Positions 1 to 48,260 of a stretch of DNA of 64,000 bases are shown piece after piece. Each line of letters starts with the position of its first letter. Positions within the stretch are counted from its first letter, which is position 1. The notes under the pieces are model-generated. The model ran no database searches. It saw nothing but the letters and a program-made list of their open reading frames with translations, and was not told the DNA's origin. The position numbers and the translations under genes are program-made. Where the stretch lies: contig NZ_CP012373.2 of assembly GCF_001305575.3 (NCBI RefSeq), positions 682,001-746,000 of the forward strand. Reading direction: 5' to 3'. This stretch comes from Beggiatoa leptomitoformis. Its GTDB lineage: Bacteria; Pseudomonadota; Gammaproteobacteria; Beggiatoales; Beggiatoaceae.

Positions 1-2
1 CT

Positions 3-1427
3 TTAATTGATGCGAATAAGCAACAGATGGATGGTGCAATTGATAAATTTATCGCTGTCTTGCAGAAAAATCCTGATGCAGAGGCATGGTTTTATTACTC
101 GGGGCATGGTATTTATCTAAAAGATGTTAATCGTCCTTCAGAAAGTGCTAATTATTTATTACCAATAGGGAATAAATATCAAGCGAGTAATCCTGCTTTT
201 ATTAAATACAATGCAGTTAACGCACATTTATTGAAAGAACGGTTAGAAAATACCCCTTTAAAAAATCGCCTAATAATTTTGGATACTTGTCGAGACAGAT
301 TGGAGTTATCAGGCAATAAAGGTTATTCAGGCGGGGAAGAGTTTCGTCCGATGACACCTAATTTAGGGTTATTGGTGGTTTATGCGACGTTACATAGTTA
401 TTCTTCTTTCGAAAATGAGAAAGAGCGGAATAGTCGATTTACCGAATTTTTATTATCTTCATTAAAAAGAAATAGTAATCAGGATATTTATAAAATAATT
501 GGCGAGACTATTAGTGGTGTTTTAAGTTCAAATTCAACATTACCCAGTGAGAAACGGCAAGTGCCGAGTGTTGAGGGAATATTAAATGGTTCATTTTGTT
601 TAGGGGAGTGTTTTCCTGTTCCTATACCTGCCACTCCTGCACCTGTGATACCTGAGCGATTACCAAAAACAATCACAAACAGTCTAGGGATGGAATTAGT
701 GCTGATACCCGCAGGGAGCTTTATGATGGGTTCTAATGAAGGGAAGGCTGATGAATATCCCATGCATGAAGTAAAGATAGACAAGCCGTTTTATATGGGG
801 AAATATGAAGTAACGGTAGGAGAATTTAGAGCATTTATAGCAGAGAAAGGATATAAGACAGAAAATGATTGTTACAGTTGGATGAAGAGTTATTTGGAAC
901 AGGAAGGAGAATACAATTGGAAACAAGTGGGATTTAAGCAAGAAGAAAATCACCCTGTGGTATGTGTAAGCTGGAATGATGCGGTGGCTTATACCAAGTG
1001 GTTAAGTCAAAAAACGAAGAAGGTTTATAGATTACCAACGGAGGCGGAATGGGAATATGTAGCGAGAGGAGAGGGTTCGGGTAAGTGGCATTTTGGGAAT
1101 GATGAAAGTCAACTTACATACTATGCGTGGTATGAAGATAATTCGGGTAAACAAACCCATGGAGTAGGGCAAAAACGCCCGAATGAATATGGACTATATG
1201 ATATGTTGGGGAATGTATGGGAATGGACATGCTCGGATTATGGCGAGTATGAAGATAAAAATAAGTTAGAGTTAGCTTGCTCAAAAAATAAAAATGAAAA
1301 CAAATCACTGCGTGGTGGTTCGTGGTATTTCAACTCTACTTTCACCCATTATGCTAACCGTTTTTATTACACACCTTTAGATAGGAACAACGATTTAGGT
1401 TTTCGTGTTGTTCGTCTATTCCCCTAA
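3..1427 (+). CDS. Caspase-like peptidase fused to FGE-type C-lectin domain (5' partial)
   Basis: The reading frame is open from the first in-frame codon of the window, so the true start lies upstream; the residues before the first Met continue the caspase fold. The caspase (peptidase C14) domain shows the catalytic His in YYSGHG (about nt 105) and the Cys in ILDTCRD (nt 288-290). A short Pro-rich linker (PVPIPATPAPVIPERLP) leads to a formylglycine-generating-enzyme/SUMF1 domain that starts at NSLGMELVLIPAGSFMMGS and ends LRGGSW...GFRVV. The two active-site Cys of true FGE are absent from the C-terminal stretch, so this is probably a ligand-binding C-type-lectin fold rather than a sulfatase-activating enzyme. 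It is a close paralogue of the gene at 6657-8258. Fusions of this kind are frequent targets of diversity-generating retroelements. Confidence 0.9.
   Translation, partial: LIDANKQQMDGAIDKFIAVLQKNPDAEAWFYYSGHGIYLKDVNRPSESANYLLPIGNKYQASNPAFIKYNAVNAHLLKERLENTPLKNRLIILDTCRDRLELSGNKGYSGGEEFRPMTPNLGLLVVYATLHSYSSFENEKERNSRFTEFLLSSLKRNSNQDIYKIIGETISGVLSSNSTLPSEKRQVPSVEGILNGSFCLGECFPVPIPATPAPVIPERLPKTITNSLGMELVLIPAGSFMMGSNEGKADEYPMHEVKIDKPFYMGKYEVTVGEFRAFIAEKGYKTENDCYSWMKSYLEQEGEYNWKQVGFKQEENHPVVCVSWNDAVAYTKWLSQKTKKVYRLPTEAEWEYVARGEGSGKWHFGNDESQLTYYAWYEDNSGKQTHGVGQKRPNEYGLYDMLGNVWEWTCSDYGEYEDKNKLELACSKNKNENKSLRGGSWYFNSTFTHYANRFYYTPLDRNNDLGFRVVRLFP
1308..1427 (+). other. Candidate DGR variable region of the first caspase-FGE gene
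   Basis: The last 120 bases run from LRGGSW to the stop and align codon for codon, without gaps, with 8139-8258. Within the first 24 codons after GGSW, most first- and second-position differences between the copies have an A in at least one copy, as expected of A-directed mutagenesis. Third-position T/C differences do not fit one shared template. Neither a template repeat nor a reverse transcriptase was seen in the window, so DGR diversification is inferred. Confidence 0.45.
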
Positions 1428-1499: not shown

Positions 1500-1600
1500 A
1501 CGCGATATTTTTCGTTTTTTGCCAAATAAACACACATCAACTACAAATTATTAGCATTTTTTCGCCTAATAATTTGGCAATTTTCACCAACTCCCCGCCA
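1500..1600 (+). repeat. Duplicated 3' flank of caspase-FGE genes (copy 1, empty MITE site)
   Basis: This stretch matches 8346-8399 joined to 8610-8656. It contains a 9-bp inverted repeat (AAATTATTA at 1545-1553, TAATAATTT at 1567-1575). In the second copy a 204-bp element is inserted inside the left arm. The flank duplication suggests that the two caspase-FGE genes arose by duplication or transfer together with their 3' ends. Confidence 0.7.
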
Positions 1601-1789: not shown

Positions 1790-2584
1790 ATGAAACTCTT
1801 ACAAACAACTGCCGTTCTGCTGTTTTTGCTTATCATTGGCTACATCAGTGCGAATGAATATGCACCCGCTGTGACCGCAGAACTACGTACTTACGTTAAA
1901 AATACTGCTACCGAGTGGTCAGATGAAGCTAAACGTAGCGACCCTGTTGGCTATTTACGTTTCTCACAAGAGAAATTAGAACAACAGAAAGTACAATTGC
2001 AAACCGTTGTTAAAGAAATGCGTGCCGCAGTGCAACCCCTCGCGGAATACATTCAACAAACACGTGAAGAACTCGCAAAAACCGCTGCATTGTTAAATGA
2101 AGGCAAAACCATTTATCAACAAGCAACCATCGTCGGTCCTTCTGAAGTTGTGAGCGGTATCAAGTTCTATGGTCGCACTTATCCCGATGTCAATTCTTTC
2201 AAAACACAACTAGAAGTGTTGATGCAAGAAAAAATGGGCAAGGAGTCTGTGCTCGCTAAAGCAGATACAACTCACAAACAATTAACAGAACGTCTTATTT
2301 CAACCCGTTTGCAAATTCATCAAGTTGAAATGGCTATCAACCAAATCGCGCCACAAATCGCCATTGTTCAAGCGGCAACTGCGGGCAATGAATTAAGCAA
2401 GCTGATTGGCGAAGCTGAGAAAGTTACTAACATCGCTTTAGATGGCTTTCAAGAACCTGCTGACAGTTACAACTTAATCAGAACGACTAAAGAACTGGTC
2501 GAGGATGCAGGACAACACAGCACGATTGGGGCAGTTGGAAGTGTAAGCATTGAGCTTGAAAACTTTTTACAATCAGGTAAATAA
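1790..2584 (+). CDS. Hypothetical membrane-anchored coiled-coil protein
   Basis: I do not recognise a family. The 264-residue protein starts with a hydrophobic segment (residues about 4-22) that could be a signal anchor or uncleaved signal peptide. This is followed by a long Gln/Glu/Lys/Ala-rich stretch (about 45-200) that looks like coiled coil, broken near 105-140 by a short region containing KFYGRTYPDVNSFK. GGAG lies about 8 bases before the ATG. It is first in a co-directional set leading to a caspase-FGE gene, but a strong hairpin at 2609-2640 separates it from the next gene. A role as an envelope scaffold or sensor for the locus is a guess from position only. Confidence 0.7.
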   Translation: MKLLQTTAVLLFLLIIGYISANEYAPAVTAELRTYVKNTATEWSDEAKRSDPVGYLRFSQEKLEQQKVQLQTVVKEMRAAVQPLAEYIQQTREELAKTAALLNEGKTIYQQATIVGPSEVVSGIKFYGRTYPDVNSFKTQLEVLMQEKMGKESVLAKADTTHKQLTERLISTRLQIHQVEMAINQIAPQIAIVQAATAGNELSKLIGEAEKVTNIALDGFQEPADSYNLIRTTKELVEDAGQHSTIGAVGSVSIELENFLQSGK

Positions 2585-2608
2585 ATAGTTTACTTACCCT
2601 GAAGGATG

Positions 2609-2640
2609 ACTTTCCCCTTTTAAAACTGAAAGGGGAAAGT
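2609..2640 (+). promoter_or_regulatory. Perfect 12-bp hairpin between genes (attenuator or mRNA-stability element)
   Basis: ACTTTCCCCTTT (2609-2620) pairs perfectly with AAAGGGGAAAGT (2629-2640) across an 8-base loop. No T-tract follows on either strand, so it is not a standard intrinsic terminator. Lying between the coiled-coil protein and the sigma-like gene, it may mark a processing or stability boundary. Confidence 0.5.
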
Positions 2641-2674
2641 TACAACTATACCACTGACCAGCAAAGGAAAAACT

Positions 2675-3502
2675 ATGAATCCTTTTGAATCATCTCAACT
2701 AAGAAAGCTGTGCATCACGATACATGGGGAGGAGCTGATTGAGCGTTTAATATGCCTGCAAGCAGATTGTGAACAGTCAGTAGTTAGCGAAACGCTACAA
2801 AAATGGTTAACAGAGTGCATTTTTCCGCAACTGACACAAAAAGAAAACCCTATCAGCTTTTTTACCCAAGAGTTTTTAACAAAAAGTTTTAGCCGTCGCT
2901 TGTATCACGCTTTACCCACTTTACGCATTAAATGGCAATGGCAAGATGAGTTTGTTAAAAATCAGTGCCTTGCTATTTTAGGTCAATGTTTTTCGCAATA
3001 TGCTTATGATGTGAGAAACGAAGGACAAACGCAGAATGAACGGCGTGAGCTTGTAGAAAAAGCCGTCAAACGACTTGAAAGAGAACGCGACAATTTTCAA
3101 CGCTTAAAGAAAGACCCTGCAAAGCTCGCCAGTGAGTTATTTAAAGAATTAGGTGAACGGTATAGCGAACAGTTGTTAGAAGAAACCATTTGGGCTATGC
3201 AACCACATATTGATATTAATGAGGATATTGCCAGTGAAGCATTTTTATTACAGCAATATGCACCAGACATATACAACAGTTTTGTCGACTGGGATAGCTT
3301 TCAAACTTGTTTGGAATGCACTCAATGTCCCGAACCTTTAACAGATGATGAACGTATTGCAGTAGAAATTGAATTGAAGAAAGAGATTGAAAACAAGACA
3401 GAACAAGAGTTATGCGCAGAGTATAACATTAGTCGTGAGACACGCCGTTTACGTTTTAAACGTGCTCAAGCAAAACTAATTGATTGTTTTAGCTCTTTAT
3501 AA
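2675..3502 (+). CDS. Sigma-70 region-4-like HTH protein
   Basis: The 275-residue protein carries a predicted helix-turn-helix at its C-terminus (about 235-270), with LCAEYNISRETRRLRFKRAQ followed by AKLIDCF. This layout matches the region-4 helix-turn-helix of sigma-70-type factors. The N-terminal 150 residues are rich in helices and charged residues and have no motif I can name; a region-2 domain is not obvious, so it may be a divergent sigma factor or only sigma-like. AAAGGA precedes the ATG by six bases. The next gene follows after 25 bases and may be its partner. Regulation of the downstream DUF4384/caspase genes is plausible but unproven. Confidence 0.6.
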   Translation: MNPFESSQLRKLCITIHGEELIERLICLQADCEQSVVSETLQKWLTECIFPQLTQKENPISFFTQEFLTKSFSRRLYHALPTLRIKWQWQDEFVKNQCLAILGQCFSQYAYDVRNEGQTQNERRELVEKAVKRLERERDNFQRLKKDPAKLASELFKELGERYSEQLLEETIWAMQPHIDINEDIASEAFLLQQYAPDIYNSFVDWDSFQTCLECTQCPEPLTDDERIAVEIELKKEIENKTEQELCAEYNISRETRRLRFKRAQAKLIDCFSSL

Positions 3503-3527
3503 CATCTACGAATGACGGATATTTAAA

Positions 3528-4076
3528 ATGAAACCGAATGCAGAACAGCTAAAAAAACTTTTACAAACTTTCTTAGCAACTCAAACCGACATAACGGATA
3601 CATCACGTTTTACGGATGAACAGTTAATTGCTGTTATTACAGGTAAAAAACAGTTTACTAAGGAAGAACAGAAAGTATTATTTACTTCACCAGCAACCCG
3701 TTATCGTTTGATACAACTGCAACAGTTACAGCGTTTAAAAGCCTATATGGAATGGGAGCAGTATCAAGTACAACCCGCGTTAATTGTTACAAAAGCGGCA
3801 ACAACAGCACTTGTTAAAAGAGAAGACATAGAAACGAACACACATACCTTGTCTTTAATTCCACACGATATAGCGGGAACAAGTTGGTCAATTGTGTTAG
3901 AACTAAAATCTGACTGTTTGAAAAGAACATACGGCGTTAAATTAGTCGACCAACACGGTGATATTTGGCTTAAAGGATATCCTGATAACAATGGCATTAT
4001 TGAGACATTCTGGCAACGGCAAGAATCACCTTTAGCGTTATTAAAGGAAGTTGAATTAAAGTTAGAACCACTTTAA
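3528..4076 (+). CDS. Hypothetical protein, possible partner of the sigma-like factor
   Basis: This 182-residue protein has no signal peptide or membrane segment. The N-terminal half is helical and Gln-rich (QLKKLLQTFL, then RYRLIQLQQLQRLKAYMEWEQ). The C-terminal half (about 105-180) looks like a small beta-rich domain (TSWSIVLELKSD...YGVKLVDQHGDIWLKGY). Its place directly after a sigma-like gene, with a 25-base gap, recalls sigma/anti-sigma pairs, but there is no zinc motif or membrane anchor to support that. Only 20 bases separate it from the next gene, so co-transcription is likely. Confidence 0.6.
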   Translation: MKPNAEQLKKLLQTFLATQTDITDTSRFTDEQLIAVITGKKQFTKEEQKVLFTSPATRYRLIQLQQLQRLKAYMEWEQYQVQPALIVTKAATTALVKREDIETNTHTLSLIPHDIAGTSWSIVLELKSDCLKRTYGVKLVDQHGDIWLKGYPDNNGIIETFWQRQESPLALLKEVELKLEPL

Positions 4077-4096
4077 AACAAAAGGGATAGACCATT

Positions 4097-5269
4097 ATGA
4101 AAGAATTTAGCGTATGGATTCCAATGGTTGAACAGCAACAAGTTGAATTAGTTGAGGCAATTATAACTGCTCATGAAGTAGAAGCTTCAATTTGGCTTAC
4201 TACGCATCCGAGCACGTGTAATCGAAAATCTGAGATTGGACAATTGTTAATAGGCGTGCGTGCTGTTGAAGGTGGGCAACAAGCACATCAGTCTATTACT
4301 CCAAGGTTCGAAAACAGAACAGTCGTTACAGGCAATAGTTGGCAATTAGCCATTGCAATAGCCGATAAAATGGTACGTTTAAACGCTAAAGCAGCATATT
4401 TTATTGTCGCAACTGGTGCTGTAGATTCACATGATTTAATGGTATTAGAGGTGGGAGATTTTTCGAAAAAACTTGCTTTTTTAGCAGATTATGCACAAAA
4501 GAATAAGCCTAGAAATCCTGTATTTGTTTATCCTACTGCGAATAAAGAAGATTTTACTGACAGTGATAAAGAAGCACTCACAACGCTAAAACAGAAAGGT
4601 TGGCAAATTCACGGTATTTCTAACTTAAGTGATGTTCAATTTTTGTGGGAACAGAAAAAAGCTACCACAAGCTCAATAGGTTGGCAAAAACAATCTTTAA
4701 TCGTTACTTCAGTGCTTTTATTAGTAAGTGCTTTATTGGTTTGGTATAAGCAATGCTATTTTGTTAATTGTTCTATTCCTCCACCTGTTCCTCCATCTGA
4801 TTCTCCATTTAAGCCTATTCCACGGGTTTTCAATTTTAACTTTACATATCGTAAAAGTGCTGACGAACACACCACTGAATATACATTAAATTCAGGGGAA
4901 ATTTTGAATGAAAGTGATGAGATTAAATTGCATTTCTTTTCATTAGAACAAGGTTATTTATATTTATACTATTTGGATAGTAAAGGAAATTTAACCGAAT
5001 TTTTTACGAAGTCAGAACAGTTTAATTTAATAGAAAGTGGGAAAAATCTCGTTTTACCTGCTGAGAATCACTCTTTTGTTGTTGATGATACACATGGTAC
5101 TGAAAAATTTTATTTAATTTTTTCTAAGCAGTTGGATATAGATATTTATCCACTTTTTCAACAATCGCAACTATTTGTAAAGCAAGGGAGGGTCAAAGAC
5201 GGATTGTTGCTTCAACAGCAAGTTATTAGCAAGTTGGAAAAATACAATATTTTGACTTTTTATCATTGA
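4097..5269 (+). CDS. Lon-protease-like domain / transmembrane / DUF4384 protein
   Basis: Three parts are visible. The cytoplasmic N-terminus (about 1-185) resembles the S16 Lon proteolytic fold: GNSWQLAIAIAD (Ser81) matches the Ser motif, and VLEVGDFSKKLAFLADYA (Lys125) followed by a YP..NKEDF segment matches the Lys motif and following strand. A single membrane helix (about 202-221) and Pro-rich linker (PPPVPPSDSPFKP) come next. A C-terminal DUF4384-type domain follows (LNSGEILNESDEIKLHFF, YLYLYYLDSKGNLTEFF, LVLPAENHSF). DUF4384 domains are often found beside caspase, kinase and FGE modules. The gene is flanked by 20- and 16-base gaps, so it is operonic. The catalytic dyad is my alignment by eye. 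Confidence 0.7.
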   Translation: MKEFSVWIPMVEQQQVELVEAIITAHEVEASIWLTTHPSTCNRKSEIGQLLIGVRAVEGGQQAHQSITPRFENRTVVTGNSWQLAIAIADKMVRLNAKAAYFIVATGAVDSHDLMVLEVGDFSKKLAFLADYAQKNKPRNPVFVYPTANKEDFTDSDKEALTTLKQKGWQIHGISNLSDVQFLWEQKKATTSSIGWQKQSLIVTSVLLLVSALLVWYKQCYFVNCSIPPPVPPSDSPFKPIPRVFNFNFTYRKSADEHTTEYTLNSGEILNESDEIKLHFFSLEQGYLYLYYLDSKGNLTEFFTKSEQFNLIESGKNLVLPAENHSFVVDDTHGTEKFYLIFSKQLDIDIYPLFQQSQLFVKQGRVKDGLLLQQQVISKLEKYNILTFYH

Positions 5270-5285
5270 TGTTGGGAGAAAGGCA

Positions 5286-5984
5286 GTGAAAATACTGAAA
5301 AAGCTTGTTTATATTGCGTTATTAGGGGTTAGTGTTCACTTACAGGCAAGTGATGAAAGAAAGGGACTGGACATCCGAGAGGATGCTAGACTTTCTATGA
5401 AGTTTGATCAAACAGTCCATAGTAACGCTAATGGTAACGGGGTGATGACTTCTGATGATGTGGTTGTTGGTTATAAGTACAGTAATGAAAACGGTACAGG
5501 TAAACAATTTGTATTGCGAGATCAGAGCAACTTACGGTCAGGAGATAAGTTTACAGTTTATGTACAGGCTAACAAGAACGTTTTTGTCTATTTGTATCAT
5601 TCGGATAGCCATGGTGAGACTAATGAATTAATATCCATGTCTGGTTATAAGAACTACCTGCAAGCAGGTCAAACATTGACATTGCCCGCTGAAAATAAAC
5701 ATTTTTTCTTAGACGACAAAACGGGTCAGGAGATGATTAATACTGTTGTGTCTTCGTCTGCGCTGTCTTTAACGCAAGGCTCTGATAACAGCCCAATTAC
5801 AAACGATAAAATTAATGCGTTAGTACCTAAAGGGATTATAATCGGTAATGATAACAATATTGCTGCTGGTAATGGTGTTATTACTCAGAAAAAAACCTCT
5901 GTTGCAGAAGGTTATACCGTGCAATGTCAAGCCTTAGACAGTGCTTGTCGAGATACTTTTGTGATTAATCACTTACCCCGTTAA
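5286..5984 (+). CDS. Secreted DUF4384-domain protein
   Basis: The gene starts with GTG (5286), preceded by a GGGAGAAAGG ribosome site. The 232-residue product has a signal peptide (MKILKKLVYIALLGVSVHLQA). Its DUF4384-like core resembles the C-terminus of the previous gene: LRSGDKFTVYVQANKNVFVYLY, then a D/G-rich turn, then LTLPAENKHFFLDDKTGQE. The last third is Asn/Ser-rich (NDNNIAAGNGVI), ending with two Cys in QCQALDSACRD. It is probably periplasmic and may pair with the membrane-bound DUF4384 protein. An intrinsic terminator follows the stop codon. Confidence 0.75.
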   Translation: MKILKKLVYIALLGVSVHLQASDERKGLDIREDARLSMKFDQTVHSNANGNGVMTSDDVVVGYKYSNENGTGKQFVLRDQSNLRSGDKFTVYVQANKNVFVYLYHSDSHGETNELISMSGYKNYLQAGQTLTLPAENKHFFLDDKTGQEMINTVVSSSALSLTQGSDNSPITNDKINALVPKGIIIGNDNNIAAGNGVITQKKTSVAEGYTVQCQALDSACRDTFVINHLPR

Positions 5985-6007
5985 GTGTTTAATTTTTTTC
6001 CATTTTG

Positions 6008-6042
6008 AAGATGAATAAATCTTTTTTTATTCATCTTTTTTT
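6008..6042 (+). terminator. Intrinsic terminator after the DUF4384 genes
   Basis: AAGATGAATAAA (6008-6019) pairs perfectly with TTTATTCATCTT (6026-6037) and runs straight into a T-tract. It separates the DUF4384 operon from the OmpA/caspase pair, which would then need read-through or its own promoter. Confidence 0.85.
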
Positions 6043-6077
6043 ATGTTTTTTCTAATAGCCATTAAGGAGATATGCAG

Positions 6078-6626
6078 ATGAATTTTTTTAGATTTATTTT
6101 ATTCAGCAGTTTCTTAATGATACACAGTGTAAAAGCAGCAGAATTGCAAAATGGGGTCTGTTTTCCTAAAACAACAGAGGAAATTTTACAGTTGTTACAA
6201 CAAGGTGTGTGTGCAGGCTTTGAATCGAATGATGGTTGGGAGGCTAAGGGATTTGGCGATGTTTCAAAGGGTATTCATATTGCTCACGATAAAGTAGCGG
6301 TATTGTTTGAGTTTGATTCTAGTGATTTATCACCTGACTTTTATGCGTTGTTGGATGAGTTTGGGAAAGCTATTCAAGTTTTATCTGATTCAAAATTTAT
6401 TATTCAAGGACATACGGATAATATCGGTTCAGATAGTTACAATCTGTGGCTATCAGAGCAACGAGCGAATCAGGTATTGTCATATTTAGTTAATAAACAG
6501 GGTATTAATAGACGGCGTTTATCGGTGCAGGGTTTGGGTAAATCCCAACCCTTAAAGGGTACTGTAACACATCAATCCGATGAAGAACGTGCTTGGAATC
6601 GGCGAGTAGAATTTGTGAAACAATGA
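6078..6626 (+). CDS. OmpA-family peptidoglycan-associated protein
   Basis: An OmpA C-terminal domain fills residues about 75-180: VLFEFDSSDLSPDFYALLDE, then IIQGHTDNIGSDSYNLWLSE with the Asp and the following LSEQRANQVLSYLV helix that contact diaminopimelate, then RRLSVQGLGKSQPL. A signal peptide (FFRFILFSSFLMIHSVKAA) sends it to the periplasm. I prefer the ATG at 6078 because AAGGAG (6064-6069) is eight bases away; the ATG at 6072 is only two bases from it. It sits 30 bases before the secreted caspase-FGE gene, which suggests that the pair acts together at the cell wall. Confidence 0.9.
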   Translation: MNFFRFILFSSFLMIHSVKAAELQNGVCFPKTTEEILQLLQQGVCAGFESNDGWEAKGFGDVSKGIHIAHDKVAVLFEFDSSDLSPDFYALLDEFGKAIQVLSDSKFIIQGHTDNIGSDSYNLWLSEQRANQVLSYLVNKQGINRRRLSVQGLGKSQPLKGTVTHQSDEERAWNRRVEFVKQ

Positions 6627-6656
6627 TTTTAATTCGGTTAATAGGAGGCTAATTGT

Positions 6657-8258
6657 ATGATTCGTTATGGGTTATTGAGTCTATTAATACTAACAAGTCC
6701 TATTGTACAAGCAGTTGATAAATATGCTTTAGTCATTGGGATTGGTAATTATTCTGACGGATGGCAATTAACTAACCCTGTTAATGATGCGGAAGATGTC
6801 AGTGTTGCATTAAAAAACGTGGGGTTTCGCGTTACAAAATTAGTCGATGTTGATAAACGTCAAATAAACCAAGAGATACAAAACTTTGCCTCATCATTAC
6901 AAAATGGGGATGTGGCTTTATTTTTCTTTTCAGGGCATGGATTTAGTGGGGAAAATATCGATAGGCGAATGACTAATTTTTTAGTGGGTAGTTTTGATGA
7001 ATCTGTTAGAACAGAAACAGCATTGCAAGAGAAATCTGTTGATGTGCAGTTTGTAATACGAAGTTTACGAGAGCGTAATCGTGGTGGCATCAATATTGTG
7101 GTATTAGATGCTTGCCGTAATATTCCTGAGCGGTTTCGCCGTGAACAAAAAGGTTTTTTTAATGATGGTTTGGTAAGTTTGGGAAAATATGAACGGTTTG
7201 TTATTAATTATGCAACACAGCCTTTGCAGGTTGCATTAGGTAATGATAAGAGCCGTAATAGTGCTTATACAAAGTATTTTATTCGTGGCTTACAGAATAA
7301 TGCATTAATTAATAAGAATATTACGGAGTTTTTTAACGAAGTAGGGTTGCAAATGGTAGAGGAGTTTGGCGAAAAACAAACGCCTGTAGTAGAAGCACCG
7401 CCGATACGTTTTTGTTTAGCCAATTGTGAGACATTAACGATTAGTCCTGCACCCGCGATACCTGAGCAATTACCGCAACCATTACCAAAAACAATCACAA
7501 ACAGTTTAGGCATGGAATTAGTGCTGATACCCGCAGGAAGTTTTATGATGGGTTCTAATGATGGGAGTCCTGATGAAAAGCCTGTGCATAAAGTAAAGAT
7601 AGATAAGCCATTTTATATGGGGAAATATGAAGTAACGGTGGGGGAATTTAGAACATTTATAGCAGAGAGCGGATATAAAACGGAAGCGGAAAAAGGAGAT
7701 GGTTGTTATGGATGGACAGGGAGTAGTTGGGAAAAGAAAAAAGAATACAATTGGAAATGGCTAGGATTTAAGCAAGAAGAAAATCATCCCGTAGCATGTG
7801 TAAGCTGGAATGATGCAGTAGCTTATACAGAGTGGTTAAGTCAGAAAACGGGAAAAACCTATAGATTACCAACGGAGGCGGAATGGGAATATGCGGCAAG
7901 GGGAGGGAGTTTGGGTAAATGGTATTTTGGGGATGACGAAAGTCAACTTGAAAACTATGCGTGGTATGGGGATAATTCGGGTAATCAGACTCATGCAGTA
8001 GGGCAAAAACGCTCAAATCAATACGGACTATATGATATGGCAGGGAATGTATGGGAATGGACATGCTCGGATTATACCAGTAATGGATACGATGGGAGTG
8101 AGCTAGTTTTATCTAAAAATTCCAATAAAGACAAGACGTTGCGTGGTGGCTCTTGGAGCTACTATTCCGATAACGCCCGCTCTGCTAACCGTGCCGACTA
8201 CGCACCTACGATTAAGGGCAACTATGTAGGCTTCCGTCTTGTTGTTATTTCCCCCTAG
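6657..8258 (+). CDS. Secreted caspase-like peptidase fused to FGE-type C-lectin domain
   Basis: A strong AGGAGG site precedes the ATG. The 533-residue protein has a signal peptide (MIRYGLLSLLILTSPIVQA), a caspase domain with His94 (FFFSGHG) and Cys153 (VLDACRN), a linker (PAPAIPEQLPQPLP), and an FGE/SUMF1 domain from NSLGMELVLIPAGSFMMGS to the C-terminus. The active-site Cys pair of real FGE is missing from the LRGGSW...GFRLV tail. The last 120 bases use C-ending codons (TAC, TCC, AAC, GCC, CGC, GAC), unlike the T/A-ending codons before them; this fits a transplanted variable region. It is paralogous to 3-1427. A periplasmic or extracellular receptor-peptidase is the likely role. Confidence 0.9.
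   Translation: MIRYGLLSLLILTSPIVQAVDKYALVIGIGNYSDGWQLTNPVNDAEDVSVALKNVGFRVTKLVDVDKRQINQEIQNFASSLQNGDVALFFFSGHGFSGENIDRRMTNFLVGSFDESVRTETALQEKSVDVQFVIRSLRERNRGGINIVVLDACRNIPERFRREQKGFFNDGLVSLGKYERFVINYATQPLQVALGNDKSRNSAYTKYFIRGLQNNALINKNITEFFNEVGLQMVEEFGEKQTPVVEAPPIRFCLANCETLTISPAPAIPEQLPQPLPKTITNSLGMELVLIPAGSFMMGSNDGSPDEKPVHKVKIDKPFYMGKYEVTVGEFRTFIAESGYKTEAEKGDGCYGWTGSSWEKKKEYNWKWLGFKQEENHPVACVSWNDAVAYTEWLSQKTGKTYRLPTEAEWEYAARGGSLGKWYFGDDESQLENYAWYGDNSGNQTHAVGQKRSNQYGLYDMAGNVWEWTCSDYTSNGYDGSELVLSKNSNKDKTLRGGSWSYYSDNARSANRADYAPTIKGNYVGFRLVVISP
8139..8258 (+). other. Candidate DGR variable region of the second caspase-FGE gene
   Basis: This is the gap-free counterpart of 1308-1427. Its codon style changes abruptly from the rest of the gene and the differences fall on surface-loop residues of the C-lectin fold. 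No template repeat or reverse transcriptase lies in the window; known DGRs can act on distant targets. Confidence 0.45.
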
Positions 8259-8328
8259 GATTCTTTACCCTTTATGCTTTTAATCTTTTACCCTTTTAAT
8301 CTTTAAGGATGTTAATCTTTTTTCTAAG

Positions 8329-8344
8329 TCCCCCTTGCGGGGGA
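8329..8344 (+). other. Hairpin 3' of the candidate variable region (copy 2)
   Basis: TCCCCC (8329-8334) pairs with GGGGGA (8339-8344) across a TTGC tetraloop. The stem length and loop size match the hairpin at 1482-1497 although the bases differ, which suggests the structure is conserved. Confidence 0.4.
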
Positions 8345-8345
8345 T

Positions 8346-8656
8346 CGCGATATTTTTTGTTTTTTTGCCGAATAAACACAGCCCAATTACAAATTATTAA
8401 CGCTAGTTCGGCGAGTGGCGAAAACCTTTTAGAATTTTTCAACTAAAAAAATGTAGGGTGGAATAGCGAAGCGTATTCCACCATACGATTTATAATCTGT
8501 TTTTGCTCAGTTTTTGCAGAATTTCAAGGTGGAATACGCTTCGCTATTCCACCCTACAACATTCAAGCTATTGTCTTTTTAAAAGAAACTCGCCGTACTC
8601 GCGTTATTAGCATTTTTTCGCCTAATAATTTGGCAATTTTCCCCAACTCCCCGCCA
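8346..8656 (+). repeat. Duplicated 3' flank of caspase-FGE genes (copy 2, interrupted)
   Basis: The sequence is homologous to 1500-1600 but interrupted by the element at 8400-8603. It resumes at 8610 with the same GCATTTTTTCGCC spacer and closing arm. A GACCTAACAGG segment shared with copy 1 follows at 8657. The remaining bases to the chemoreceptor gene (8680-8968) are AT-rich and presumably carry its promoter; nothing else was recognised there. Confidence 0.7.
8400..8603. mobile_element. 204-bp MITE-like element with TTATTA target duplication
   Basis: The element is flanked by direct repeats TTATTA (8394-8399 and 8604-8609). Its ends form an imperfect terminal inverted repeat, ACGCTAGTTCGGCGAGT against ACTCGCCGTACTCGCGT, with two mismatches. 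Inside are two 30-base segments in perfect inverted orientation (8453-8482 and 8529-8558) built around GTAGGGTGGAATA, each itself partly palindromic. There is no coding sequence. The paralogous flank at 1548-1553 has a single TTATTA, giving an empty-site comparison. A transposase acting in trans is presumed. Confidence 0.7.
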
Positions 8657-11895: not shown

Positions 11896-14829
11896 ATGGC
11901 TACAGACCTAAAATTATTAATATGTTACGCCCATCAAGACGCGACGTTTAAAGATACCCTGCTAGCCCATTTACAGGATTTACGTCAACAAAAAGCGGTA
12001 ACGGTGTGGGAAGATACTGCTTTGCACGAAGGGCAGTTACGTATCAGTGTCTTAGAAGCAGAATTGCAACAGGCAGGGGTGATTTTATTATTAGTGAGTC
12101 CTGATTTTATGCAATCACGGTTTGTTGCTATGCCTGCGTTATTGCGTCTTTTTAGGCAATTAAGCCTTGCAGGTAAGCGCGTTGTTCCTTTGATTTTGAG
12201 TGCGACAAATTGGGGTGTTTTGGATTTCTGTAAAACGCAAGCCTTGCCGAAAGGCGATATTCCACTGGAACGGGTGTTATATCCCGCAGAGGAATGGCAA
12301 GCCATTGTAAAACGGATTAGTCGTTGGTGTGCTGAACAATTGTCTGCACCTAATGAGGTATCCATTGCGGTTGATTTACAACATTTGCCCGCAACCAACA
12401 CACCGCTGGTGGGTCGTCGTCAAGCCTCAAAAGACTTAACGAATGCTTTTGATAATAAAAACACGTTTATTATTAGTATTACTGCCCCTGCTGGCGTGGG
12501 TAAATCAGCGTTAGTGAATGCGTGGTTAGAAAAAATTGCTCCTCATTATCTGGGAGCATCGCATGTGTTTGGCTGGTCTTTTTATGGTCAGTCTGATGAA
12601 CAACCGAGTGTTTCGTCGAGTTTATTTTTAACCCATGCTTTGCGATTTTTTGGACATACGGGGGAGTTGCCATTAACAGATGATGCAAAAGCGCAACGCT
12701 TAGCTATCTTACTCCGTGAAAAACCAATGATTTTAGTTTTGGACGGCGTGGAAGCCTTACAATACTCGCCACTGGTGCGTAAGGGCGCGTGTGCTGATTT
12801 GGGGCTAAAAACCTTTTTGCAAATCTTAAAAACCCAGCACTTGGGTGCGCAACATTTAGTCGTTCTCACATCACGCCAAAAAATCATTGAGCTGACCGAT
12901 ATTGAGCATAAAGGCTATGATAATTTAACCTTAGATAATTTAAATGCGGGCGAAAGCGCGAATTTATTGAAATTATTAGGTATTAAAGGTTCGCCTTGGC
13001 AATTAATTCCTGTCACAAAAACATATAGTGGTCATGCACTTGCCTTGATATTGTTGGGTAACTTATGTGTAGATGTTTATGCAGGAGATGTTACACAACA
13101 TGCCCGATTGCCTGCTCTATCCGTTGCAGAAGAGCAGGGTGGGCAAGCTTTGCGGGTGATACGGTTTTATGATGAAAAATTTTGGACTGTCAACGCCCCT
13201 GAACGGGTTTTTTTGCAGTTATTGAGTTTATTAGACCGTCCGTTGACACTGGCGGAAAGAACGTTGTTGTTACAGAATACGCAATTGGCTAAACCCGTGC
13301 GCAAACTCAGTGAGTTAGAATGGGCGGGGGTCATTTTTCATCTGAATAAATTGGGGTTGGTACAAACCCATCCGCAACAAAATCCCGAAGCATGGGACAC
13401 TCATGCCTTAGTACGTCATTATTTTCGTGAGCAATTACGTACTCAGCAGGCAGAATTATGGCAAGAAGCGCATCATGTATTGTTCGAGCATTTACAAACA
13501 TTACCCCCATCTAATCAACCAGATACATTAATTTCTTTAGAACCCTTATATAGAGCCGTTACACATGGCTGTTTGGCGGGGGAATATGAGGCGGCATTGC
13601 GTTTATATCGAGAGCGCATTTTACGAGGCGACCAGTATTATAGTACTCAGCAATTGGGGGCATTTTCGGCGGATTTAGCGGTCATTGCGAACTTTTTTGA
13701 AGCCAGTAATTGGGCAAAACCCATCACCAATCTTTCTATTGCTGATCAAAGTTGGCTGTTGGCGCAGGCTGCCTTTTATATGATGGCGTTAGGACAATTA
13801 GAAGAAGGATTGATGCCGTTAAAAGGCGCGGCGATGTTGTGTAAAGCGCGACAGGATTGGAAAAATGCGGCTAAAGCGCATAATAATCGCGCTGATTTAT
13901 TGTTGACATTAGGTCGTTTGAGTGAGGCTGAAGAGGTTGCACAGGCGGCCATTGAGTTAGCGGAAACCAGCCAGCATAATTTTACCCGTTTGTTATGTCA
14001 TGCAAAATTTGGGAATTTATTGCATCAATTAGGCGAGTTAGATTACAGCCACGCGGCGTTTGAGTTAGCCGAAATGTTGCAAGTTGAAGACCAGCCTAGT
14101 GATGGACAATTGTATTCACTTATTGGTTCTCAATATTGTGATTTATTGCTTGATACAGCACAAAATGCTGTGGAACACGGGACAATTTTATTACGTGCGC
14201 AGAAGTCTTTAGCCATTGCAGAAGAACAATTAGGCTTGGTAAGTATTGCGTTTGGACGGTTGACATTAGGTAAAGTATTTAATGTATTAGAGCGTTATGA
14301 GGAAAGTTTACTTGCCTTGAATGCGGCATTACAACAGTTGCGTCAAGCAGAAGTATTTTTATACATTCCTGAGGCGTTGTTAGCTAGAGCAGTGACTTAT
14401 CAACGGCTTAATCATTGGGATAGTGCTAAACGGGATGTAGAGGAAGTGTTAGACATTGCTAAACGCAGTAATATGTCTTTGTATGAAGTTAAAGCTAGCT
14501 TATTGTTAGCTAATTTGTTATTGGATAAGTATGCATTGCAACAACCGACGGGTAATTATTTTGTGACGCGCTTGGTTGGGCAAGGCGTGGGCGATAATAC
14601 GCTAACGCAAGCAGAAGAATTATATCGGCAAACATCGCGTTTAGTATATGAAATGAATTATCGATTGCGGTTAGCCGAGCTTTCATTGCTGGGCGCGCGC
14701 CTCGCTCATTATACTCATGCGACAGATAGCGCAATACATCATTTGGAAGTTGCACAGTCACGTATCGTTGCGATAGAGCAATGGGGGCTGTTAGGACAAT
14801 GGGAACGGGTACGCTTGGAAATAGGCTAG
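11896..14829 (+). CDS. TIR-STAND ATPase-TPR protein (NLR-like)
   Basis: The 977-residue protein opens with a TIR_2 domain (1-135: LKLLICYAHQDATFKDTLL, VTVWEDTALHEG, GVILLLVSPDFMQS). A STAND/NB-ARC-type ATPase follows, with Walker A APAGVGKSALV (about 197-207) and Walker B MILVLDGVEAL (about 277-287). A winged-helix region comes next, then TPR-like helices from about 540 to the end (KNAAKAHNNRADLLLTLGR). This architecture is used in bacterial antiphage sensing and plant-like NLRs. The Glu expected about seven residues after the fS motif in NADase TIRs is not seen; the stretch reads SRFVAMPALLRLF. The TIR may therefore be a signalling adaptor or inactive. It appears to be a single-gene unit. 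Confidence 0.9.
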   Translation: MATDLKLLICYAHQDATFKDTLLAHLQDLRQQKAVTVWEDTALHEGQLRISVLEAELQQAGVILLLVSPDFMQSRFVAMPALLRLFRQLSLAGKRVVPLILSATNWGVLDFCKTQALPKGDIPLERVLYPAEEWQAIVKRISRWCAEQLSAPNEVSIAVDLQHLPATNTPLVGRRQASKDLTNAFDNKNTFIISITAPAGVGKSALVNAWLEKIAPHYLGASHVFGWSFYGQSDEQPSVSSSLFLTHALRFFGHTGELPLTDDAKAQRLAILLREKPMILVLDGVEALQYSPLVRKGACADLGLKTFLQILKTQHLGAQHLVVLTSRQKIIELTDIEHKGYDNLTLDNLNAGESANLLKLLGIKGSPWQLIPVTKTYSGHALALILLGNLCVDVYAGDVTQHARLPALSVAEEQGGQALRVIRFYDEKFWTVNAPERVFLQLLSLLDRPLTLAERTLLLQNTQLAKPVRKLSELEWAGVIFHLNKLGLVQTHPQQNPEAWDTHALVRHYFREQLRTQQAELWQEAHHVLFEHLQTLPPSNQPDTLISLEPLYRAVTHGCLAGEYEAALRLYRERILRGDQYYSTQQLGAFSADLAVIANFFEASNWAKPITNLSIADQSWLLAQAAFYMMALGQLEEGLMPLKGAAMLCKARQDWKNAAKAHNNRADLLLTLGRLSEAEEVAQAAIELAETSQHNFTRLLCHAKFGNLLHQLGELDYSHAAFELAEMLQVEDQPSDGQLYSLIGSQYCDLLLDTAQNAVEHGTILLRAQKSLAIAEEQLGLVSIAFGRLTLGKVFNVLERYEESLLALNAALQQLRQAEVFLYIPEALLARAVTYQRLNHWDSAKRDVEEVLDIAKRSNMSLYEVKASLLLANLLLDKYALQQPTGNYFVTRLVGQGVGDNTLTQAEELYRQTSRLVYEMNYRLRLAELSLLGARLAHYTHATDSAIHHLEVAQSRIVAIEQWGLLGQWERVRLEIG

Positions 14830-41919: not shown

Positions 41920-42918
41920 ATGTATATTTTAGCAGGTGACATTGGTGGCACAAAAAGCCACTTAGGCATTTTCCAACGGCAAACTTCTAAACTTCAGCTA
42001 ATTCATGAGAAAAAATTAGCAAGTCAAAACTTTTCTTCCTTAATCTCTCTCTTAACTGCTTTTTTTGACAACAGCCAAATTCCCCTAACTGATATTAAAG
42101 CAGCTTGTCTAGGTGTTGCAGGTCCTGTATATCAGGGGCAATGTCATATCACTAATTTATCTTGGACAATTCAACAAAACGAGTTGCAAAATTTTTTTAA
42201 TTGTAAAGAAGTTTACTTAATTAATGATTTAGAGGCTGTAGCGTATGGAGTTTTGTATACCAATGTGGAATATATTGATATTAATCCCTATGCATCTACT
42301 ACTGAGAAAGGAAATATCGCAATCATTACGTTAGGAACGGGATTTGGTCTTGCTATTTTAGCTTGGGAAAAGCAAGGTGAATGTTTCTTTGTGCTGCCTA
42401 CAGAAAGTGGACATACTAATTTTGCACCTCGAAATCAACAACACTTAGCCTTTTTGGATTTTTTATTAAAACAACAGCAGAAAACTGTTTATGATAATAT
42501 TTTATCGGGTTCTGGCTTAAAAATGATATATAGTTTTTTCTGCAAACAGAATCCAAAATATGTTTGTACTTCTGATTTCTTACAAAAAGAAGATTTTACA
42601 AAAGTTTTAATAGAAAAAGGATTAAAAAAACAAGAAACACTTTGCGAAGCCACTATCAATTTTTTTGCAGCTCTTTGTGCATCTAAAATAGCTGATATTG
42701 CTTTAGAGCATTTAACGTTAAATGGTATTTATCTCGGTGGTGGTATTGCGCCTGCAATTTTACCTAAATTACAAGAAACATTTTTTTTGGAATCATTTTT
42801 AGATAAACCTGAAAAATTTGCAGCGTTGCTAAAACAGATTCCTATCAAAGTGCTAACTAATCCAGAAATAGGAATGTTAGGAGCAGCACATTATATTCAT
42901 ACAGGAGAATATTCATGA
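41920..42918 (+). CDS. glk: Glucokinase (Glk family)
   Basis: The 332 residues follow the bacterial Glk family: phosphate loop LAGDIGGTKSHLGIF, CLGVAGPV, catalytic LINDLEAVAYG, and the sugar site ESGHTNFAPR (usually EGGH). The adenosine-binding motif reads LGTGFGLAIL rather than GTGLG. The core catalytic residues are kept, so glucose phosphorylation is plausible. Its stop overlaps the next start by 4 bases (ATGA), tying it to a protein that contains a second, degenerate Glk domain. This is not a normal glycolytic context. Confidence 0.88.
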   Translation: MYILAGDIGGTKSHLGIFQRQTSKLQLIHEKKLASQNFSSLISLLTAFFDNSQIPLTDIKAACLGVAGPVYQGQCHITNLSWTIQQNELQNFFNCKEVYLINDLEAVAYGVLYTNVEYIDINPYASTTEKGNIAIITLGTGFGLAILAWEKQGECFFVLPTESGHTNFAPRNQQHLAFLDFLLKQQQKTVYDNILSGSGLKMIYSFFCKQNPKYVCTSDFLQKEDFTKVLIEKGLKKQETLCEATINFFAALCASKIADIALEHLTLNGIYLGGGIAPAILPKLQETFFLESFLDKPEKFAALLKQIPIKVLTNPEIGMLGAAHYIHTGEYS

Positions 42919-45900
42919 TATTAATTGGTTATATTGATGTCAGTGTTTCAACGATTGCACTTTTTTCTGAAACCAAATTAACTGGACTATTAGTTAAACA
43001 TGATTTCTCTACACCGAGCCATGACCGTTTAGAAGATATTATCTTAGAGTTTAAACAACTATCTGAAGTTAAAAAGTATCTTTTAAGTGAAAAGATTAAC
43101 ATAGCTGCTTTTGGTGTTGCAGGTCCAGTCGAAAAGGATGAAGTTACAGGTCAACATGTTAAATTAACCAATGTATCTGCATTTGAACGAATTTATTCCA
43201 ATCGTTTAGCTGCCTACTTGAATATTCCTCAAGTTAAAATATTTAACGATATGGAGGCTCTTGCCTATGGTTTACCTTTGTTATCAGATAATGCCTTTAC
43301 TTTTTTAAGTCCTTCCACTCTATCATCTCAACAACAAGCTAGTAGGGTTTTAATTGCGGCAACAGGAAATGGTTTAGGTGAAGCAATATTAAACTGGAAT
43401 ACCGAACAAAAATGCTATTCCGTTATCCCGTTAGAAGGAGGACATATTGATTTTGCTCCTAGAACACCTAATGAAACACAATTACTTGCTTTTTTCCAAA
43501 AATTTTATTCACCTGTAAGTTACGAAAATATATTAACGCATAATGGACTTGAAAAAATTTACCAGTTTATAACATCTGGTTGTGATTTGCTTAAGGCAAA
43601 AGAAATTATTGAAAATGCATTATTATCCACAAATGAAAACTGTGTTGTTGCGTTAAAGATGTTTTTATCAATTTACGGCGCGAAAACAGGAAATCTTGCC
43701 TTGCAACAAACAGGATTCGATAAAATAGAAATAGCTTATATTGCTGGTGAAATGACAAGAGAACTTTTGCCACTTATTGTTGACAATATATTTACGGATT
43801 CATTCAAGAAACACAATCAAGAGAAATTCCAGACAATTTTATCTCAAATTTCTATCAAAGTCCTAACACAAAGCAACGTAGATATTGGATTAGAAGGATT
43901 AGCCGAACATGTAAAGCAATTTATCAATTGCTCATCTGAAACAGATATTTCTAAAGCTATTTTGTTGAACAACGAATCAAATGTTACTAGCCCCCGTATT
44001 TTTATTGGCAAACTTCGTGAAAAAGCACTTATTGTTAATATGTTATATCCGCCAATAACTCAGAAAAGCTGGATTTTACATTTTCAAGGTCAAGGGGGAC
44101 TCGGTAAAACGCTTTTATTGGAATATGCTTATGAAAGTAGTACTAAAAATGAACATTTTCTGTGTGTAAAGGAGCCCGTTGATTTTTATTTTTCACGGCA
44201 TGAACAAGAACTAGGGATATTAAAAAGTCTTGCTGATAATTTAAATCAAAATAATATATTCAAAAACTTTTATTTAAAATTAAATGCCACGCTTCAAACT
44301 CCCGATAGGCTACAGCAGGTGAGAGAGGCTTTTATACGCAATTACGCAAATTTACCACAAGACCATATCATTCTTCTATTTGATACCACAGAAAAAATTA
44401 CTGACTCAGCCAAAAAATTCTTTACAGAAACTTTATTAAGATTAAAGAGAGTTAAACCTCATACTTCTGTTATTGCAGCAGGGAGAAAACCCTTAGATTT
44501 TTTGCCAGATGAATTTGTAACCCAACAATCTATAAGTAGTTTATCTAAGCAAGAGGTAATCGAGTATTTTGAAGATGATCGAATAGGTATTCAATTATCT
44601 CCAGAAATATTAGATAAGTTATATTCTCTGTCTGAAGGTAAGCCAATTCTAATCGGTTTGTTTGTAGACTGGCATAAGAACGGAAGTGAAATTGAGGAGT
44701 TAATTAAATACGACACTCCCGAAAGTTTTAAACAGGCAATGGTTGAAAATATAAAATCTCTTAATTCCCCGCAAGATGCCATTTTGTTGATGATAGCGCA
44801 TTGTCATCGTCGTTGTAATGAATCTATCCTAACGTACTTATCTCCCGCATATAAAAGCCATATTGATACAACGTTAAAACAGTTGAGAAAATTTTCTTTT
44901 GTGAAGTATCGTCATACTCCTAATGGAGTGGAAAGTATATTATTGCATGATGAGGTATATGATCTTATAGAGAAATATATATGGGTAAGCATTGATCCTG
45001 TAGGCAACCTACAAAAAAACCATAGCACTCGTCTAGCTAATTATTATTTACAATGTATTGAAACAGAATCTGATGAACAAGAGAAACTAACTTTACAAAA
45101 GGATTATTTATACTATCAATTATATGCTGAGCGTGGTAAGGGTTTTCAATTATGGCAACATTGGATGCAAGAAGCTAAAAACCCCGAAACAAAAGAAGCA
45201 TTACAACAAGAAGTGAAATTCTTATCTCATCTTCCAGCAATAAAAATAATATACCAACATTATCAAACTGAAATTTATTATGCCCGTGGACAATATAAAC
45301 AATGTATAGAACTTGCGAATAACTTACGGAGAGAATCTACTGAGGAACAGCATCAAACTATTTATCCTCTTTTGCTTACTTCCTATGTGAATAGTGGAGA
45401 ACCTCAACAGGCAATCAATTTAGGGCTTGATTTATTATCAAAAATCTCCTCCAACACATTGATTGGTGAATTACATTCAGTGATTGGATATGCTTATAGA
45501 AAAAAAGCAAATTATCAAGAAACAATTAAACATTATCAATTAGCACTGAGATTTTATACTAAAGATGATCTTGAGCAGATTGCCCGCACTGAAAATAACT
45601 TGGGTTATTTATTACATCAATTAGGGCGAGATAGAGAAGCATTCGCATATTGCTCTAATGCATTACGTACCCGCCAAAAATTGAATATCCCTTATGAGCT
45701 GGGTCTCAGTTATAACGTATTAGGCATTATAGAGTCTGGTAGCTATCGCCAAGCTCGTGCTGTTGCTTATTTTGAGCAAGCATTAAATTGTTTTGAACAA
45801 GCGGGTTCTGAACGTGGTAAGGGATTGGTTTATATTGCTTATGGACAAATGTTATCAGAACAAGTGGATACTGTACGACAATCAGCAGAAGCAGAGCTTT

Positions 45901-46586
45901 TGAAAGCAGAAAATATGTTAAATAATGCGGTTGATATTATGGAAAGAACAGATCGTTCTACCCTTATTGAGGCGTTATATGAGAAAGGACGTTTACTTCG
46001 TAAACAGTCAAGTTTTAAATTTAAGCCTGAAGGTTTTTATCAAGCGTTAGAAACATTAGAGTATGCAGAAAAGTTAGCAATAGAAAATAGTAATATTATA
46101 TTTTCACTAAAGATTAAAAAAGACATAGCAATTACTCTATATTTATTAGCTAAATTTGAAAAAGAAAATATTGAAAAGCAAGAAACATTTAAGAAAGCGA
46201 AAGATGTTTGTTTACAATCCATTCAACTAATACAAGATGAACACTTACCTAGTATTTACATCCTTAGTCGTATTCAACGCACACTTGCAAGTATATTGTA
46301 CGAAGAACAAGCCTATGAAGAAGCTTTTATGAATGCAGCTAACTCTGTAATTACTTTGTGCCAAAAATGCGAAAATGCTATTGATCAAGTGGACATAACA
46401 CCAGCTAAACGAGAACTTTTGTATAGTTATTGGCAAGAATGGTTAATTAATGACATGTTTAATCCATATCCATTAGTGGATAAAGTAAAATATATTCAAT
46501 ATTTATTGCAATGCTGGCAAACCGAAATTTCTGAAACTGAAAGGATAAGTTTTGTTATTGCCATAACAGGTATTGAAAAGGTTTGA
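42915..46586 (+). CDS. Degenerate glucokinase domain fused to STAND ATPase and TPRs
   Basis: The 1223-residue protein has a Glk-like N-terminus (about 1-335): FGVAGPV, IFNDMEALAYGL, GNGLGEAIL and EGGHIDFAPRT are kept, but the phosphate-1 loop DIGGT reads YIDVS, so kinase activity is doubtful while sugar binding may remain. A STAND ATPase follows, with Walker A GQGGLGKTLLLEY (about 391) and Walker B HIILLFDTTEKI. A winged-helix region and a long TPR array (about 740-1200; ENNLGYLLHQLGRDREA) complete it. The design suggests ligand sensing that triggers STAND oligomerisation. It is translationally coupled to glk upstream and the second STAND gene downstream. Confidence 0.9.
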   Translation: MILIGYIDVSVSTIALFSETKLTGLLVKHDFSTPSHDRLEDIILEFKQLSEVKKYLLSEKINIAAFGVAGPVEKDEVTGQHVKLTNVSAFERIYSNRLAAYLNIPQVKIFNDMEALAYGLPLLSDNAFTFLSPSTLSSQQQASRVLIAATGNGLGEAILNWNTEQKCYSVIPLEGGHIDFAPRTPNETQLLAFFQKFYSPVSYENILTHNGLEKIYQFITSGCDLLKAKEIIENALLSTNENCVVALKMFLSIYGAKTGNLALQQTGFDKIEIAYIAGEMTRELLPLIVDNIFTDSFKKHNQEKFQTILSQISIKVLTQSNVDIGLEGLAEHVKQFINCSSETDISKAILLNNESNVTSPRIFIGKLREKALIVNMLYPPITQKSWILHFQGQGGLGKTLLLEYAYESSTKNEHFLCVKEPVDFYFSRHEQELGILKSLADNLNQNNIFKNFYLKLNATLQTPDRLQQVREAFIRNYANLPQDHIILLFDTTEKITDSAKKFFTETLLRLKRVKPHTSVIAAGRKPLDFLPDEFVTQQSISSLSKQEVIEYFEDDRIGIQLSPEILDKLYSLSEGKPILIGLFVDWHKNGSEIEELIKYDTPESFKQAMVENIKSLNSPQDAILLMIAHCHRRCNESILTYLSPAYKSHIDTTLKQLRKFSFVKYRHTPNGVESILLHDEVYDLIEKYIWVSIDPVGNLQKNHSTRLANYYLQCIETESDEQEKLTLQKDYLYYQLYAERGKGFQLWQHWMQEAKNPETKEALQQEVKFLSHLPAIKIIYQHYQTEIYYARGQYKQCIELANNLRRESTEEQHQTIYPLLLTSYVNSGEPQQAINLGLDLLSKISSNTLIGELHSVIGYAYRKKANYQETIKHYQLALRFYTKDDLEQIARTENNLGYLLHQLGRDREAFAYCSNALRTRQKLNIPYELGLSYNVLGIIESGSYRQARAVAYFEQALNCFEQAGSERGKGLVYIAYGQMLSEQVDTVRQSAEAELLKAENMLNNAVDIMERTDRSTLIEALYEKGRLLRKQSSFKFKPEGFYQALETLEYAEKLAIENSNIIFSLKIKKDIAITLYLLAKFEKENIEKQETFKKAKDVCLQSIQLIQDEHLPSIYILSRIQRTLASILYEEQAYEEAFMNAANSVITLCQKCENAIDQVDITPAKRELLYSYWQEWLINDMFNPYPLVDKVKYIQYLLQCWQTEISETERISFVIAITGIEKV

Positions 46587-46590
46587 GATT

Positions 46591-48255: not shown

Positions 48256-48260
48256 TTATT

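Follow-up and report, generated by a model that had tools for sequence, protein, structure and literature searches.

A caspase gene cluster of Beggiatoa leptomitoformis with a retroelement-like variable region, a candidate recognition system of the cell envelope

In this report we focus on a cluster of seven co-directional open reading frames (ORFs) in a 64,000-nucleotide stretch of the Beggiatoa leptomitoformis genome (contig NZ_CP012373.2, positions 682,001 to 746,000; hereafter the window), the last of which, g2, encodes a caspase fused to a domain of the formylglycine-generating enzyme (FGE) family. The genome, a single contig of 4.27 Mb, was compared within a set of 42 genomes of the order, itself included. 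All seven genes listed for positions 1790-8258 by an earlier sequence-only reading are present on the + strand, separated by gaps of 90, 25, 20, 16, 87 and 30 bp, and Pfam detects in them, over its cut-offs, two DUF4384 domains, one OmpA domain, and Peptidase_C14 together with FGE-sulfatase (Table 1). The span given for the cluster was nevertheless too narrow, for upstream of it lie a second caspase-FGE gene, g1, and a gene encoding the effector-associated domain EAD7, both of which are probably part of the same neighbourhood. A 53-bp direct repeat (52/53) at window positions 1548-1600 and 8604-8656 lies 3' of both caspase-FGE genes and brackets the operon.

Table 1. Features of the caspase-FGE locus; positions are those of the window unless a locus name precedes them.
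Feature	Position	Strand	Evidence
EAD7 (effector-associated domain) gene upstream of g1	L005:6229-6738		Pfam EAD7 over cut-off
Caspase-FGE paralogue g1 (554 aa)	1..1427, start ~238 bases before the window; L005:6763-8427	+	Pfam C14 and FGE-sulfatase over cut-off; hydrophobic N-terminus ending ASLASA
VR-like C-terminus of g1	1314..1427	+	Aligned with g2 and the L007 gene; own codon-position skew absent
264-aa protein, N-terminal hydrophobic segment, coiled-coil type by reading	1790..2584	+	Homologues only in G041 and G002 among 41 other genomes of the order
275-aa protein, sigma-region-4-like C-terminal stretch	2675..3502	+	TIGR02937 E 4.8e-4, below cut-off; G041 homologue in same place, 28% identical
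182-aa protein, no hydrophobic segment, no family	3528..4076	+	G041 homologue in same place, 29% identical
Membrane protein: Lon-like N-terminal domain, one transmembrane helix (199-217), DUF4384	4097..5269	+	Pfam DUF4384; transmembrane scan; hhalign to E. coli Lon P-domain; G041 homologue 27% identical
DUF4384 protein, probably exported	5286..5984	+	Pfam; N-terminus; G041 homologue 38% identical over 180 aligned positions
OmpA-type peptidoglycan-binding protein, probably exported	6072..6626	+	Pfam OmpA 1.9e-21; N-terminus
Caspase-FGE protein g2, probably exported	6657..8258	+	Pfam C14 5e-30, FGE 5e-65; His/Cys dyad; N-terminus; PDB relatives PvdO, TvpA, FGE, MALT1
Putative DGR-type variable region (VR) of g2	8145..8258	+	Codon-position skew; coincidence with relatives' template adenines
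3' flank common to g2 and the L007 FGE gene	8259..8368	+	59/60, then 42/49 identical
Hairpin TCCCCC(TTGC)GGGGGA downstream of the g2 VR	8329..8344	+	Similar hairpins at relatives' VRs

In g2 the caspase domain is joined to the FGE domain; its caspase His/Cys pair is intact (SGHG at 92, DACR at 151), and its assignment to the EACC1-associated caspases falls below the cut-off for NF047832 (45.9 vs 140 bits). Residues 399-529 of its FGE domain match TvpA of Treponema denticola (PDB 2y3c, E 8e-29), the second-best PDB relative of this domain and the variable protein of a diversity-generating retroelement (DGR), so the C-terminus had rightly been called lectin-like. TvpA is a homologue in its FGE/C-type lectin (CLec) domain; the match covers the FGE part alone, and the TvpA chain gives no caspase match. 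We considered and rejected a functional formylglycine-generating enzyme, because in an alignment to human FGE both positions that we take to be those of the catalytic cysteines hold non-Cys residues in g2.

Export of g2 and its partners is predicted from a hydropathy peak plus an AxA-like site. The 8-residue N-terminal peak reaches 2.64 in the DUF4384 protein, 2.36 in the OmpA protein, 2.79 in g2, 3.90 in the 264-aa protein and 2.50 in g1, all of which carry an AxA-like site, and at most 2.02 in 14 other ORFs of the window. A stricter 19-residue membrane-helix scan was positive solely for g1, the 264-aa protein and the Lon-like protein. In a rival explanation g2 stays in the cytoplasm and acts in abortive infection, as a caspase of the kind known from DGR conflict systems, and the apparent signal peptides are unused. 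The EAD7 gene beside g1 would suit it, as would the occurrence of DGR conflict systems with caspase-like effectors in multicellular bacteria, described in PMC10907252 and PMC7159879. We nevertheless hold that explanation to be quite improbable, given the OmpA and exported-type DUF4384 neighbours and the hydrophobic N-termini with AxA-like or lipobox-like ends found in g1, g2 and homologues in genomes G041, G015 and others, although the strict helix scan did not flag g2. Judged by its N-terminus, g2 is probably exported to the cell envelope. That an exported caspase would be unusual for prokaryotes was overstated, since 104 metacaspase sequences (15%) are reported in PMC3501461 to have membrane helices, many of them possibly signal peptides.

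The central feature of the locus is that the C-terminal ~35 codons of g2 look like the variable region (VR) of a DGR. Counterparts of the last ~37 codons occur in a gene for a TPR-FGE protein elsewhere in the genome (L007:4071-6995; the L007 gene), in g1 and in an orphan copy, and as judged from these alignments the genome contains at least three VR-type FGE genes and one orphan VR. The genome has nine FGE genes, and C-termini were inspected in eight; the L020 FGE gene (G000 2,066,788-2,067,465, -) has a VR-like C-terminus, LRGGSW...VRSAYR...GFR. The orphan (L008:6985-7097; G000 3,919,984-3,920,096) shares the 3' end without an FGE body; it has a carboxylase gene on one side and tandem genes for Rpn-like nucleases on the other (names by sequence reading). 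A decayed template repeat (TR) is disfavoured for it because the codons at variable positions are mixed, and we read it as a VR.

Ordinary divergence affects third codon positions most, whereas DGR mutagenesis of AAC/AAT codons alters the first two. The VRs of g2 and the L007 gene differ 15/9/1 times at first/second/third codon positions; for the FGE body the corresponding counts are 55/53/94 (Fisher p 1.7e-5). The two genes are 70-71% identical over the FGE body, 82% over the 60 bp 5' of the VR and 78% within the VR itself; after the stop codon identity is 98% over the first 60 bp, 86% over the next 50 bp and 64-65% thereafter. Pairs involving the orphan VR have a less clear skew (16/8/10, 15/10/9 and 17/14/11) and, like those involving g1, therefore look older or differently shaped. 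A hairpin follows seven of ten VRs examined (the exceptions being g1, the orphan and G013) and none of three TRs, and it occurs in 50 of 500 random stretches.

Relatives carry intact DGRs. When the g2 VR was used as a DNA query it pointed to genome G020, in which an avd-like gene, a DGR-type reverse transcriptase (RT) and a TR lie behind a similar VR; a search with this RT over the 42 genomes gave matches at E < 1e-50 in 12 of the 41 others. It is 45% identical to the RT of G041, an RVT_1 protein directly behind an avd gene identified by family models. The G041 RT lies 5 kb from the sole other homologue of the sigma-like gene, in the order sigma-like gene, 180-aa protein, Lon-like/DUF4384 protein, DUF4384 protein with a hydrophobic N-terminus, caspase-FGE, avd, RT and TR; the OmpA gene, which in the window stands between the DUF4384 and caspase genes, is elsewhere in G041. 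TR/VR mismatches fall on template adenines in 18/19, 16/16 and 18/19 cases for three G041 VRs, the third of which belongs to a lipoprotein-type caspase-FGE gene preceded by OmpA and by a homologue of the 264-aa gene. Thiomargarita sp. SulCav_FS08 (G015; DYNP01000008.1, DYNP01000027.1) has OmpA and DUF4384 genes divergent from a caspase-FGE gene with an exported-type N-terminus, avd, RT and TR, with 15/15 mismatches at A, and other TR/VR pairs tested gave 20/22, 16/16, 12/15, 16/18, 13/15 and 13/15. The relatives' templates also bear on the Beggiatoa genes: g2 and the L007 gene differ at 23 places in a 31-codon core, and these coincide with template adenines of all six relatives' TRs tested (13-19 overlaps vs 5.9-8.7 expected; p 2.6e-4 to 1.7e-7), a test from which the G004 TR, which did not fit the search pattern, and five further loci were left out. 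For differences between g1 and g2 the p values are 9e-5 to 0.015. The signature of a DGR-type VR is an indirect one in g2 and the L007 gene, and is not seen in g1.

A further line of evidence is conserved linkage. Apart from B. leptomitoformis, 33 genomes of the order have a DUF4384 match, and we surveyed the best locus of each, leaving a few loci chosen by eye out of the counts and calling caspase and OmpA genes with small local hidden Markov models built from this family; many of the stretches are cut by contig ends. A caspase lies in the fetched stretch of 26 of the 33 loci, as compared with 1.4 expected from caspase counts, ten of the 26 being DUF4384-caspase fusions; an OmpA-like gene is present in 13, and both are present in 11. 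Homologues consistently lacking these partners would have spoken against the proposed neighbourhood, which the survey thus leaves standing. The 264-aa gene occurs in three of the 42 genomes, always near a caspase or OmpA gene, and the idea that it is unrelated to the cluster was rejected because its sole other homologues in the order adjoin OmpA/caspase genes. In G002 one part of the gene apparently lies at the end of contig C11 and the other at the start of contig C7 (L168, L169), which suggests that these contigs, carrying caspases, DUF4384, the 264-aa gene and OmpA, are neighbours. In a survey of named DGR loci (best 80 of 563), a caspase lies in the flank of 16/80 and DUF4384 plus OmpA in that of 1/80, from Thiomargarita; DGR-linked caspases are thus wider than the order, but the module itself looks like a lineage speciality.

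That these genes encode an envelope recognition system built on DGR-diversified caspases is the reading we favour, with reasonable though far from full confidence, and the DGR link, which had gone unnoticed when a surface recognition role was proposed from the sequence, much strengthens that proposal. Several results weigh against it. The genome of B. leptomitoformis gave no match to the G020 DGR RT; its single RT found is an antiviral one of Drt4-like type (L006:5274-6851, -; NCBIfam 391 vs a cut-off of 450 bits), and a DNA search for a TR returned VR-like copies alone. The g1 VR has no codon-position skew against either g2 (16/13/13, p 0.20) or the L007 gene (10/12/12, p 0.57), and g1/L007 differences meet template adenines weakly (p 0.005 to 0.15). 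Among relatives, 19 RT loci were examined and 12 have a TR/VR pair, with a recognised caspase target in 3/12, some of the nine other targets being truncated. The five-gene order is found in just two genomes. Finally, the labels of two products are weak: the sigma-region-4 resemblance is present but lies under the curated cut-off of TIGR02937 (19.8 vs 42.9 bits; 14.2 for the G041 homologue), and Pfam finds no Lon peptidase (S16) in the 4097-5269 protein. The missing RT and TR and the unskewed g1 would fit a rival explanation with no DGR history here, in which the shared C-terminus had arisen by gene conversion and positive selection. We judge this very unlikely, because third positions are nearly unchanged (1/25 g2/L007 differences), because the differences coincide with relatives' template adenines, and because the hairpin is as in relatives. 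VR diversity in this genome is either frozen or supplied from elsewhere.

A third rival accepts diversification and questions its purpose: the caspase-FGE proteins would be diversified adhesins or receptors for kin recognition and filament or biofilm formation, with a self-processing caspase and no immunity or transcriptional output. An exported-type caspase with a VR domain and an OmpA-like partner in 13/33 DUF4384 loci would suit such a function. Against it stand the intact His/Cys dyad, the sigma-like and Lon-like genes linked in two genomes, and the EAD7 gene at g1, and we consider it improbable, although less so than the two rivals above.

The sigma-like and Lon-like proteins would form the inward end of the envelope system. 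The profiles of both met no PDB sequence at E up to 1, and no match to the sigma-like gene turned up in viral contigs. In the membrane protein, the Lon-like part precedes the helix of a single-pass protein and DUF4384 follows it. The Lon label comes from one local hhalign match to the E. coli protein (E 6e-4 at a probability of 28%; in global mode, E 0.015 and 1.4%). None of 70 unrelated pieces and none of 100 shuffles scored as high, the best piece coming close (25.5 vs 29.6). In the alignment S81 and K125, two residues that do not vary between the two homologues, fall on the GPSAG and GGLKEK stretches of Lon, which we take to be the region of its Ser-Lys dyad. A single-sequence structure prediction gave a poor model (mean pLDDT, the predicted local confidence, 52) with no fold match at E 0.001. 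A class-wide search with a Lon-like/DUF4384 profile matched in 7 of 369 sampled genomes, G041 not being among them, and the sole match to cover the Lon-like part is the full-length one of B. leptomitoformis itself. By topology, the 275- and 182-aa proteins have no hydrophobic segments, one protein is single-pass, and the 264-aa, DUF4384, OmpA and caspase proteins are of exported type; together they suggest a protein chain across the inner membrane.

Beyond the observed gene content, conserved linkage, DGRs of relatives and indirect VR signature, we infer localisation, ligand binding, proteolysis and each signalling step, which might run as follows. The caspase would be exported by Sec, and its FGE/C-type-lectin domain would bind ligands as a scaffold, with no enzymatic part to play. 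A retroelement would rewrite the ~30 codons at its C-terminus, now or until recently, giving many binding specificities among cells. OmpA and the 264-aa protein may hold the complex at the peptidoglycan/envelope, where the caspase would become active on meeting a ligand (a phage, predator, competitor or kin surface). It would then cleave a partner in the periplasm, for which the two DUF4384 proteins are the most plausible candidates. The membrane-spanning one of these would pass the signal inward, by way of its Lon-like domain and then the 182-aa protein, until it reached the sigma-like factor. This full scheme would make the module an immune or allorecognition receptor that acts across the envelope of giant and filamentous sulphur bacteria and is diversified by a retroelement: an exported caspase would sense ligands outside the cytoplasm with its hypervariable tip and cut periplasmic DUF4384 partners, and a Lon-like protein of the inner membrane would signal to a sigma-type factor. 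It is a tentative proposal that we regard as clearly less probable than an envelope recognition role as such.

Three other features of the window deserve mention. Positions 8457-8565 contain inverted copies of GGTGGAATACGCTTCGCTATTCCACC, a repeat-type element with a stem. Positions 11896-14829 encode a TIR_2, AAA/NTPase and TPR protein with a ThsB-like TIR match, a second candidate defence gene near the locus. Positions 42915-49694 are A+T-rich (GC 31-34%) and encode a 1223-aa NTPase/TPR-type protein, a 560-aa ATPase and a radical-SAM/SPASM-like protein (names by sequence reading).

DGR-diversified caspases and conflict systems are already known. The clade 5 DGR conflict systems of Thiohalocapsa PB-PSB1, as described in PMC10907252, have several things in common with the system proposed here: a C-terminal hypervariable CLec target, a DGR, multicellular hosts that form filaments or aggregates, caspase-like parts within or close to some of the loci and, for one target (DGR 5), a signal peptide. 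They are built, however, on MoxR-like or STAND NTPases, whereas Pfam detects no ATPase of these kinds among the seven genes of the window (nor MoxR ATPase or vWA genes in these or the G041 operon), and the target itself is a caspase of exported type, partnered by OmpA, DUF4384, Lon-like and sigma-like proteins. Beggiatoa is named in PMC7159879 among gammaproteobacterial hosts of DGR-linked VMAP systems. Cyanobacterial DGR targets likewise include orthocaspases fused to a CLec variable domain (PMC7517822); there, most variable proteins are predicted to be cytosolic, with some evidence of membrane localisation and secretion, unlike the exported type seen here, and section 7 of that paper describes no OmpA/DUF4384/sigma-like operon for them. 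EACC2/caspase neighbourhoods with an ECF sigma factor (PMC8195603) also link a caspase to a sigma-type gene, but here no EACC adaptor was found, the caspase is of exported type and the FGE variable domain is of DGR type. DUF4384 is a known accessory domain of orthocaspases (PMC7475262, PMC8283722), reported also in a pseudo-orthocaspase clade (PMC6426788).

An exported, trans-envelope DGR-caspase module was not found in the literature searched, supplements and subscription papers lying outside its scope, and the DGR conflict systems known from that literature are mostly cytoplasmic and NTPase-based. Fifty-nine caspases are reported for Thiomargarita nelsonii in PMC4853749, and we count up to 52 caspase matches in one genome of the order. 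If true, the system proposed here would correspond, in bacteria, to a variable immune receptor of the cell surface that is switched by proteolysis. It suggests a role for DUF4384 that can be tested and offers a concrete hypothesis for the abundance of caspases in filamentous and giant sulphur bacteria.

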